The notes under the pieces are model-generated. The model searched no databases. It had not been told where the DNA came from and worked only from the letters and a program-made list of their open reading frames with translations. Positions 18,776 through 52,534 of a DNA stretch of 64,000 nucleotides are shown piece by piece; position 1 is the first letter of the stretch, and each line of letters begins with the position of its first letter. Location of the stretch: positions 1-64,000 of the forward strand of contig NZ_CAMYMK010000008.1 of NCBI RefSeq assembly GCF_947259545.1. The letters run 5' to 3'. This DNA comes from an uncultured Marinobacter sp. (GTDB taxonomy: Bacteria > Pseudomonadota > Gammaproteobacteria > Pseudomonadales > Oleiphilaceae). The position numbers and the translations under genes were made by a program.

Positions 18776-19228
18776 ATGAGCAACTTTCTTGGCAGTCATG
18801 CCATCAATATGGATGCGAAGGGTCGTCTTGCGATCCCCGCCAAGGTGCGCGAAGAACTCGCGCAAGCCTGTGGCGGCCGCATTGTATTGACTGCCAATGC
18901 TGATGAGGAGCGCTGTCTGTTGGTGTATCCGGAGCCAGAGTGGGAAATTCTTCGACCCAAAGTTGAAGCGCTCCCCAACATGAATAAAGCCGCCCGCCGG
19001 TTGCAGCGTCTGATTCTGGGTAATGCTGCGCCGATGGAGCTGGATGGCGCCGGGCGAATCCTGGTGCCGCCCACGTTGCGCAGTTATGCGCATCTGGAGA
19101 AAAAGCTGATGCTGATCGGGCAGGGTAAAAAACTTGAGCTCTGGAGTGAGGAGCGCTGGTTCGCCTGGCTGGATGAATCATCGGATGACGATGAGATGCC
19201 GCCAGAGATGGAGGCCCTTTCCCTATGA
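18776..19228 (+). CDS. mraZ: Transcriptional regulator MraZ
   Basis: A 150-residue DNA-binding protein with two AbrB-like half-domains, each marked by the signature [16 protein letters not shown] and its degenerate repeat [14 protein letters not shown]. It forms ring-shaped oligomers and represses its own promoter by binding tandem GTGGG-type boxes, which are visible just upstream. A GTG two codons earlier (18770) is possible, but the ATG at 18776 gives the family N terminus ([16 protein letters not shown]). Its stop overlaps the rsmH start (ATGA). First gene of the dcw cluster. Confidence 0.95.
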
Positions 19229-49976: not shown

Positions 49977-50765
49977 ATGCTGCAGCATCCGCAGTTTGAT
50001 CCCGTGGCCATTTCACTGGGGCCCCTGAAAATCCACTGGTACGGACTGACCTATCTGGTGGGCTTTATTGCCGGCTGGTGGCTGGGCAGAATCCGCGCCC
50101 GCAAACCCTGGTCGCCCCTGAACGAAGAGCAGGTGGGCGATCTGTTGTTCTACATCGCCCTCGGGGTCATTCTCGGCGGCCGCTTCGGTTACGTGGTGTT
50201 CTACAACTTCGATACTTTCATCGCCGACCCGCTCTGGCTTCTGCGGGTCTGGGAAGGCGGCATGTCCTTCCACGGTGGCTTGCTGGGCGTCATGTTTGCC
50301 ATGTGGTGGTACGGCCGCAAAGTCGGCAGCGGTTTCTGGAGAATGGCGGACTTCGTTGCTCCGCTGGTCCCTATCGGCCTCGGAGCCGGACGCATCGGCA
50401 ATTTCATCAACGGCGAACTCTGGGGCAAACCCACGGACGTCCCCTGGGGTATGGTGTTTCCCCAGGCGCCGGATGCCTTGGCGCGCCACCCGTCTCAGCT
50501 GTACCAGTTTGCCCTGGAGGGGGTGGTGTTCTTTATCATCCTCTGGTGGTTCTCCTCCAAGCCCCGTCCACGCATGGCGGTATCCGGCCTGTTCCTGGTC
50601 TGCTACGGCGTGTTCCGCTTCCTGGTGGAATTCGTGCGCCAGCCTGACGCCCAGATCGGCTACCTCGCCTTCGACTGGCTCACCATGGGGCAGGTGCTGT
50701 CGTTCCCGATGATCGTGGCCGGTGCCGGCCTTATGTTGATTGCTTATCGCAGAGGTATTGAATGA
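49977..50765 (+). CDS. lgt: Prolipoprotein diacylglyceryl transferase
   Basis: A 262-residue inner-membrane enzyme with seven helices that transfers diacylglycerol to the lipobox cysteine of prolipoproteins, such as LpoA encoded in this window. Key motifs are the catalytic [10 protein letters not shown] and the phosphatidylglycerol-binding [17 protein letters not shown]. It overlaps thyA by four bases, the same lgt-thyA pair as in E. coli. Confidence 0.97.
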
Positions 50766-51601
50766 AAGCCTATCTCGACCTGATGAAAGACGTGGTAGAT
50801 AACGGCCTGGACCGGGGCGACCGAACCGGCGTTGGCACCCGCTCCGTCTTTGGCCGCCAGATCCGTTTCGACCTGGAGCAGGGCTTCCCGCTGGTCACCA
50901 CCAAGAAAGTCCATTTGCGTAGCATCATCCAGGAACTGCTGTGGTTCCTGCAGGGTTCCACCGACAACAACTGGCTGAAAGAACGCAACGTCTCCATCTG
51001 GAACGAATGGGCCCTGGAAAACGGCGACCTGGGTCCGATCTATGGCAAACAGTGGCGCAGCTGGCACTGTCCGGACGGTAGCACCGTTGACCAGATCAGC
51101 GATGTGATCGACCAGATCCGCAACAAGCCCAACTCCCGCCGGCTGATCGTGTCCGCCTGGAACCCGGCGGAGCTCCCGGACGAATCCATCGGCCCCCAGG
51201 ACAACGTCCGCCAGGGCCGCATGGCTTTGGCGCCGTGCCACTGCCTGTTCCAGTTCTATGTCGCCGACGGCAAGCTCTCCTGCCAGCTCTACCAGCGCAG
51301 CGCTGACCTGTTCCTGGGCGTGCCGTTCAACATCGCCTCATACGCGCTGCTGACTCACATGATTGCCCAGCAATGTGATCTGGGGGTGGGCGAGTTCGTG
51401 CATACCTTTGGTGACTGTCACCTGTATCAGAATCACCTGACCGACGACATCGTGTTCGAGCAGTTGAAGCGGGAACCGCGGGCTCTGCCTAAACTTGTGA
51501 TCAAGCGGAAGCCGGAGTCGATCTTTGGATACGAGTTGGAAGATTTCGAGTTTGAGGGGTATGAGCCTCATCCGGTGATAAAGGCTCCCATCGCTATTTG
51601 A
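50762..51601 (+). CDS. thyA: Thymidylate synthase
   Basis: A 279-residue enzyme methylating dUMP to dTMP with methylenetetrahydrofolate. The catalytic cysteine is the first of [13 protein letters not shown]; other conserved parts are [23 protein letters not shown] and the C-terminal [20 protein letters not shown] and IKAPIAI. It is about 15 residues longer than E. coli ThyA because of a loop ([15 protein letters not shown]) just before the catalytic region. Dihydrofolate regenerated by FolA, encoded next, closes the cycle. Confidence 0.97.
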
Positions 51602-51637
51602 CCTATGTTTGGGCCCGGTCCGATTGTTGTGGGGGCT

Positions 51638-51749
51638 GCAGGGTAGCGGGTTGGGCTTTCCGAAAAACGCCTCAAGGCATCCATGCGCGGCTTCGGCTCC
51701 GCCATCCATGGCTCCGCAGATTTTCGGAAAGCCCAACCCGCTACCCTGC
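51638..51749. repeat. 112-bp palindromic element, copy 1
   Basis: Two perfect 29-base inverted arms (51638-51666 and 51721-51749) enclose a 54-base core (51667-51720). The core is the reverse complement of the core of copy 2 with 49 of 54 matches. The arms differ in sequence from those of copy 2 (18 of 29 matches) yet are the same length and placed identically. It starts 36 bases after the thyA stop. No coding function is apparent; it could be a repeated extragenic hairpin, a small mobile element or a transcript-end structure. Confidence 0.85.
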
Positions 51750-51861
51750 GTTCTGACGATAAGGTTTGCTTATCGAAAAGAGAACGTCGGGTTTTGGTAT
51801 TTACGCAGGGTTATGAGTTCTGAATACTTGAATCTTGAATCACTGACTGCGATGTCGAGTC

Positions 51862-51973
51862 GCGAGAGGGCGGGAAGGGGTGTTCAAAAATCTGCGGAGC
51901 CATGGATGGCGGAGCCGAAGCCGCACACGGACGTCTTGAGGCGCTTTTTGAACACCCCTTCCCGTCCTCTCGC
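51862..51973. repeat. 112-bp palindromic element, copy 2
   Basis: Arms 51862-51890 and 51945-51973 pair at 28 of 29 positions, with one mismatch at 51870, around a 54-base core (51891-51944). Core and arm lengths equal those of copy 1, in inverted orientation. Its right end lies 45 bases before the folA start, so it would sit in the folA leader if transcription comes from thyA. Confidence 0.85.
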
Positions 51974-52018
51974 AGCCCCCAAGTCAAAAAAAGTAACTCC
52001 CAGCCAAGAGATCAAAAC

Positions 52019-52534
52019 ATGAGAAAAGCCCTGATAGTCGCCATGTCCCGTAACCGGGTCATCGGCCGTAACAACAAGCTACCGTGGTACCTGCCCGGCG
52101 ACCTGCGGTACTTCAAGCAGGCTACCATGGGGAAACCGATCATCATGGGGCGGAAAACCTGGGATTCCATTGGGCGGCCGTTGCCGGGGCGGATGAACGT
52201 GGTTATTTCCCGCAATCCGGAATGGGAAGCACCCGCTGGAACGGTAGCAGCGAAATCATTGGAAGAGGCGCTGGTCAAAGCCGAAGCTCAGGCTGAAATC
52301 GAGGGTGGGGACGAAGTGATGATTATCGGGGGCGGGCAGATCTACGCTGAGGCCCTGCCGATGGTGGATCGAATCTACATCACCCAGGTGCACGCAGAGG
52401 TTGAGGGAGACGCATTCTTTCCGGAAGTGAACTGGGATGAGTGGGAAGAAATCGGACGGGAGGATTTCTCCGCGTCCGATAACAACCCTTACGACTACAG
52501 TTTCGTCGTCTATCAGCGCTTGGCGTCGGCCTGA
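52019..52534 (+). CDS. folA: Dihydrofolate reductase
   Basis: A 171-residue enzyme reducing dihydrofolate with NADPH, and the target of trimethoprim. The family block is ALIVAMSRNRVIGRNNKLPW followed by YLPGDLRYFK, whose Asp is the catalytic acid. Then come GKPIIMGRKTWDSIGRPLPGR and the NADPH-binding IIGGGQIYAEAL. The ATG at 52019 gives the family start. Its last 22 bases overlap, antiparallel, the 3' end of the helicase gene. Confidence 0.97.
   Translation: MRKALIVAMSRNRVIGRNNKLPWYLPGDLRYFKQATMGKPIIMGRKTWDSIGRPLPGRMNVVISRNPEWEAPAGTVAAKSLEEALVKAEAQAEIEGGDEVMIIGGGQIYAEALPMVDRIYITQVHAEVEGDAFFPEVNWDEWEEIGREDFSASDNNPYDYSFVVYQRLASA

Follow-up and report, generated by a model that had tools for sequence, protein, structure and literature searches.

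Dispersed intergenic TwoAYGGAY-type palindromes in Marinobacter as candidate dual-site CsrA/RsmA-binding RNAs

The sRNAs CsrB/CsrC and RsmX/Y/Z are present as one or few per genome. Each carries many CsrA/RsmA sites in the form of ANGGAN hairpin loops, and CsrA-family proteins are described as recognising ANGGAN hexaloops (PMC7652899). A second described system, TwoAYGGAY (RF01731, clan CL00106), has a long basal stem and two terminal GGA loops, and was tabulated as a probable, non-cis-regulatory RNA from the human gut, gamma-Proteobacteria and Clostridiales (PMC2864571). Its CsrA binding was predicted from motifs, and its outer stem is referred to as "not well conserved" in the same source (PMC4333381); the RNA type has thus been published, and so has the prediction that it binds CsrA.

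The palindromes described here, located between thyA and folA of an uncultured Marinobacter sp., share the basal stem, the two terminal GGA loops and the RNA strand with TwoAYGGAY, but they occur in about 95 dispersed copies, with a stem unique to each place, with outward-pointing pairs and with a loop 2 that is often AGGGAY instead of AYGGAY. While their ANGGAN hairpin loops resemble those of CsrB/CsrC and RsmX/Y/Z, they are spread over many loci with two predicted sites each. They are also dispersed, intergenic, palindromic and partly paired like REP/BIME and MITE elements, from which they differ by the lack of a conserved stem sequence, by an RNA-strand bias and CsrA-type loops, and by the absence of a Y1 transposase. 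In the literature search, which covered the main texts of openly accessible papers, no dispersed TwoAYGGAY family of about 95 copies, no outward pairs and no paired stem rewriting were found.

The window, i.e., the whole stretch of 64,000 nucleotides that was analysed, contains thyA at 50762–51601 and folA at 52019–52534, both on the plus strand and both assigned from the ORF list and profile matches. Thymidylate synthase clears the NCBIfam cut-offs, and dihydrofolate reductase scored 164.5 bits against PRK10769, slightly below the cut-off of 168. Re-measurement of the arms confirmed the two palindromes of 29+54+29 nucleotides that the initial annotation had placed in the gap. Copy 1 (51638–51749, minus strand) consists of a 5′ arm at 51749–51721, a core at 51720–51667 and a 3′ arm at 51666–51638, the 29-nt arms being 100% complementary with 54 nt between them. 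Copy 2 (51862–51973, plus strand) has its 5′ arm at 51862–51890, core at 51891–51944 and 3′ arm at 51945–51973, with 29-nt arms that are 97% complementary, also 54 nt apart; their sole mismatch is a G-U on the plus (RNA) strand. As had been noted, the cores are opposite in orientation and identical at 49 of 54 positions (5/54 differ once copy 2 is reverse-complemented). The spacer at 51750–51861, recognised by the outward-pair geometry and the family flank motif, separates the 5′ ends of the two copies and contains the 5′ flanks of both.

No other stems of at least 20 nt were found in the 64-kb window by a stem scan that required >85% Watson–Crick pairs and at most 220 nt between seeds, and a promoter scan found no sigma-70-like promoter in the thyA–folA gap. 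With regard to the earlier remark that no open reading frame explains the elements, ORFs do cross them, but they are read from the repeat itself and nothing supports them. One ATG within copy 2 shares the reading frame of folA (ORF 51902–52534); the supported folA start is 52019.

A 20-base core motif, allowing up to 3 mismatches, was found at 45 places in the genome, of which one with 3 mismatches was dropped. Of the 44 copies aligned by script, two whose stems measured 11 and 4 were omitted, leaving an alignment (A1) of 42 copies. The covariance model R1, built from these 42 copies, gave 104 matches in the genome at E ≤ 0.01, which came down to 95 separate places once nine matches on the opposite strand of a place already counted had been merged; since scoring covered 150 of the 1344 first-look candidates, a few places were possibly missed. 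Copies 1 and 2 scored 116.1 and 109.9 bits with R1, respectively. The initial annotation had considered a dispersed hairpin family and had named the absence of further copies as a refuting outcome; genome-wide, copies are present at 95 places, none of which (0/95) extends more than 20 bases into a gene predicted by a simple codon-based gene caller. Four weak or odd places were omitted from the statistics below on 91 copies, and one place has no right neighbour in its stretch.

The fixed arm length suggested by the two window copies did not extend to the family, where arms of 28–29 bp occur in 46/91 copies and the range is 19–35. Outside the stem, weak conservation is found over about 18 nt per side and none farther out. 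The element is well delimited, with sharp edges and a length of about 150 bp, and carries a similar, degenerate GAAGGCTA-like sequence at either end; no conserved promoter or motif was seen upstream of its flank. All 15 pairs of copies less than 1 kb apart stand 5′ to 5′ and point outward, with gaps of 72–211 bp in 13 pairs and of 625 and 847 bp in two; one partner is weak. Single copies are not oriented to neighbouring genes (39/64 co-directional, p = 0.10; 29/63).

A long self-complementary stem is present in 42/44 copies that had been found by the core motif alone. In the 42 aligned copies, 98.1% of the cells pair, compared with 71.8% when shuffled and 38–42% when slid, and covariation is 0.680 vs. 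0.152. Arm mismatches were counted under a strand-neutral rule, and among 2500 pairs in the 91 copies they comprise, read on the RNA strand, 48 G-T/T-G, 1 A-C/C-A and 17 others; for the first 42 copies, G-U mismatches outnumber A-C by 21 to 1. Since symmetric mutation of DNA is expected to give G-U and A-C equally, selection for pairing acts on the strand that bears the GGA loops, and imperfections that are G-U on one strand indicate that this strand acts as RNA. The bias persists (7 to 0) among the 14 single copies lying antisense to the genes on either side. Together with the RF01731 match described below, the strand-specific G-U bias supports the structured RNA that had been offered among the options for these palindromes.

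The sequence of the stem hardly follows the identity of the core. No outer-arm 12-mer is common to any two of the 91 copies, and mean outer-arm identity in three large core classes is 0.39–0.44 against 0.40 expected from column frequencies, rising up to 0.57 in three pairs with identical cores. There are exceptions to these unrelated stems: two copies that differ in their cores have outer arms that are 88% alike, and members of close pairs, 14 of 15 of which entered the comparison, are somewhat more alike both in their arms (0.46 vs. 0.36, p = 0.007) and in their cores (0.88 vs. 0.73, p = 1e-5).

The best bacterial Rfam match for the RNA strand of both window copies was RF01731, with 38.5 bits for copy 1 and 31.9 bits for copy 2. 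Both scores are under the gathering score of 43 bits, and therefore the copies are filed as TwoAYGGAY-type and not as certified members. One sibling copy clears the cut-off with 44.3 bits and a full-length alignment. In the whole genome, RF01731 gave 43 matches at E ≤ 1, 1/43 being above the cut-off, and 0/14 control genomes matched. Matches to miRNA families were discarded as chance hits on long hairpins, below the families' own cut-offs. A search for RsmZ (RF00166) was uninformative, with 3 matches in the genome, none above the cut-off, and matches at E ≤ 1 in 8/14 control genomes too; its best match covers an ORF end and the following gap.

Loop 1 is AUGGAU in both window copies (51704–51709, minus strand, in copy 1; 51902–51907, plus strand, in copy 2), closed by a GCC/GGC stem of 3 pairs. 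Loop 2 is AUGGAU in copy 1 (51679–51684, minus strand) and ACGGAC in copy 2 (51927–51932, plus strand). Both copies thus have the AYGGAY terminal loops, although the second closing stem has only 2 pairs, and both hairpins are enclosed by a basal stem, as seen from the 29-bp stems and the covariation. In the family, two six-base ANGGAN loops, each closed by a stem of 3 or more pairs, occur in 81/91 copies and one such loop in 10/91, the latter including copies 1 and 2 with their weaker second stem. ANGGAN hairpins were found on the opposite strand in 0/91 copies, and two of them in 5/1820 shuffled cores. The start-to-start spacing of the ANGGAN motifs is 23–25 nt in 81/91 copies and 37–38 in 8/91.

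The sequence ACANGGANGU is present in 79/91 cores, and the exact SELEX consensus RUACARGGAUGU in only 5/91. When six copies were folded singly, the long stem formed, with hairpin 1 in the lowest-energy fold of three and hairpin 2 in none, while the consensus fold of the alignment contains both hairpins. Hairpin 1 is invariant across the 42 copies, so covariation is uninformative for it; hairpin 2 has two pairs changed on both sides. Elements with an insert in loop 1 bearing extra GGA hairpins were observed at G031:C20 ~305,700 and in L108 (G058), as if the element unit can grow.

Among relatives, 18 congeners gave very uneven numbers of R1 matches, from 3 to 126 each (up to 129 candidates scored per genome), and four of 10 genomes from other families of the order had matches (21, 20, 2 and 2). 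At the level of the class, 27/143 genomes, this one included, matched at E ≤ 1e-4 with 26 candidates scored each. The exact core pattern was found in at least 115 stretches, all Marinobacter among the matches listed. For distant loci in other families, two of 11 were skipped for lying near contig ends, and the long stem with two GGA hairpins on one strand was present in 9/9 measurable ones; pairs closer than 1 kb in other families pointed outward in 3/3 cases among the matches listed.

The thyA–folA region was surveyed in the genus at 50 loci, from which 48 gaps were extractable. By a regular expression for the core, 19 gaps contain two outward elements, 15 contain one and 14 none, an undercount since L122 and L110 visibly contain variants. 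Many congeners carry elements at this site, and at the site of copy 1 the core type switches between species with the arms still recognisable. Thirteen element-free gaps of 20–78 bp were inspected by eye: arm pieces are clear in L125 and L126 and perhaps present in L118 and L127, and the remaining 9/13 show no arm remnant. The explanation of all short gaps as deletions was dropped, since only 2 (perhaps 4) of 13 retain arm pieces; the nine remnant-free gaps could be sites never occupied. The L106 gap (G002) holds a chimera with one half from each inverted element, as after a deletion between both elements.

Orthologous stems change mostly on both sides together. In pairwise comparisons of thyA–folA orthologs, 1519 pairs differ on both sides, 199 on one side and 204 are unpaired for copy 1 (22 sequences), and the respective numbers for copy 2 (30 sequences) are 4012, 644 and 652, counts that are non-independent and in which some rows are possibly out of register. 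A set of close orthologs was taken from two relatives with flanks 84–97% identical (21 comparisons, 11 sites), and seven comparisons were omitted, five out of register and two with a different palindrome. In the 14 in-register comparisons, 316 of 374 pairs were unchanged, 44 had changed on both sides and 5 on one side, and 9 were unpaired. Divergence depends on the site, with one pair at 51637 and 8–10 pairs at 104265 and 104465. In copy 2 of G064, a block of the 3′ arm has been replaced and the partner arm has not, which is a visible unrepaired state. No donor of this block was found, its 16-mer being present at that place only, in G064, and absent, at up to one mismatch, from the genome under study and from G031. 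Template switching between the arms would explain blockwise paired change.

At C8:185148, 1 of 11 compared sites, both relatives have a different palindrome in place of the element. At C8:238.3k, the element is lost here and present in both relatives, and the end of one arm remains. A second palindrome family with the core ...gtgtctgagcgaagcgagttcttttcccg... and stems of about 29–31 bp was observed at L187:15162–15260 and 18836–18936 (G064) and at orthologous places in G031; one of its copies occupies the site equivalent to C8:185148, and no Rfam family matched it above its own cut-off. A separate REP-like palindrome, GTCGGATTACGCC..GGCTAATCCGAC, lies at G000:C8 ~238,300 beside the lost element and at G031:C20 ~229,200, elsewhere in G031.

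The family is intergenic and dispersed, paired changes maintain its basal duplex, one of the two strands acts as the RNA, and the loops match the CsrA/RsmE recognition shape. On balance we favour reading the palindromes as dual-site CsrA/RsmA-binding RNAs on long double-stranded handles, where binding, expression and effect are what we infer; confidence is slightly reduced by the weak second hairpins of the window copies, missing in the single-sequence folds. The genome has one csrA gene. CsrA was found in 24/27 element-bearing genomes of the class, including 21/21 complete ones (p = 0.05), the three genomes without it being 67–88% complete; this co-occurrence is in consistent but weak agreement with CsrA binding.

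The placement of the elements also fits a read-through barrier or transcript-end element, whose long hairpin would end or protect transcripts at gene 3′ ends, the GGA loops being incidental or secondary. Convergent gaps are enriched among the element-bearing ones (23/79 vs. 78/566 gaps of at least 20 bp in 864 kb of genus Marinobacter, p = 0.0014; 22/294 in this background counting only gaps of at least 130 bp), and outward pairs are frequent between convergent genes. However, T-runs after the stems are absent from the flanks of the 42 copies, no terminator was detected at the elements by a terminator scan, the direction of single copies is unrelated to transcription, and a pure terminator would need no two conserved ANGGAN loops with a set spacing, which makes this explanation unlikely. 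A role in which the stem serves RNase III as a substrate or forms a cruciform in DNA, with the RNA strand processed and the function in the duplex instead of the loops, would agree with the duplex of about 29 bp being the longest and best-paired part. A DNA-only role leaves the 48 G-U against 1 A-C unexplained, and across families it is the loops that are conserved and not the stem sequence; we hold this role to be very improbable.

A selfish REP- or MITE-like element, spreading as DNA or RNA, would use the hairpin as its recognition structure and have CsrA binding as a by-product. The high copy number, very uneven in congeners, the sharp-edged unit with similar ends, the short thyA–folA gaps without remnant (9/13) and the site where relatives have another palindrome instead (1/11) speak for it. 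On the other hand, a Y1 transposase is absent from the genome (PF01797, 0 matches), copying of whole elements would leave 12-mers common to outer arms, of which there are none, and many thyA–folA copies are common across the genus. Moreover, at least one absence in the genome itself goes back to a deletion in which part of an arm stayed behind, and copy 1 has no match in plasmid or phage records. Selfish spread is thus considered rather improbable. Of the three options that had been offered, structured RNA and dispersed hairpin family stand, while the small non-autonomous mobile element is unsupported, given the site common to congeners and the lack of Y1, arm 12-mers and plasmid or phage matches.

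For the CsrA/RsmA-binding RNAs, the proposed mechanism would start from transcription by read-through or from an own start, and the basal duplex of about 29 bp would present the two small hairpins with ANGGAN loops. One CsrA/RsmA dimer may dock on both loops, whose ANGGAN starts are in most copies separated by 23–25 nt, and the RNA may be protected against decay by its stable duplex. The stem sequence would be free as long as pairing holds and could drift by paired changes, and the core would be constrained, with swaps between subtypes. Jointly, the roughly 95 copies would buffer CsrA from scattered positions and tag the transcripts next to them. More tentatively, and with some doubt, it is proposed that Marinobacter possesses a distributed CsrA buffer made up of about a hundred RNAs with two sites each, every one at its own intergenic site and often in outward pairs, with handles rewritten symmetrically (both arms, sometimes in blocks of 8–10 bp) and the CsrA-binding core exchanged between copies.

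TwoAYGGAY has stood without an assigned function since 2010. With about 95 copies, outward pairs among them, and one csrA gene, the present genome opens the CsrA hypothesis to a direct test; if it is true, these bacteria would set their CsrA activity through intergenic RNAs scattered over the genome and not through a few dedicated sRNAs. Paired stem rewriting offers a natural test case for how the arms of long palindromes are kept matched. Should the distributed-buffer proposal be true, this would be a dispersed repeat kept by RNA structure rather than by sequence, with the stem as a locus-specific tag.
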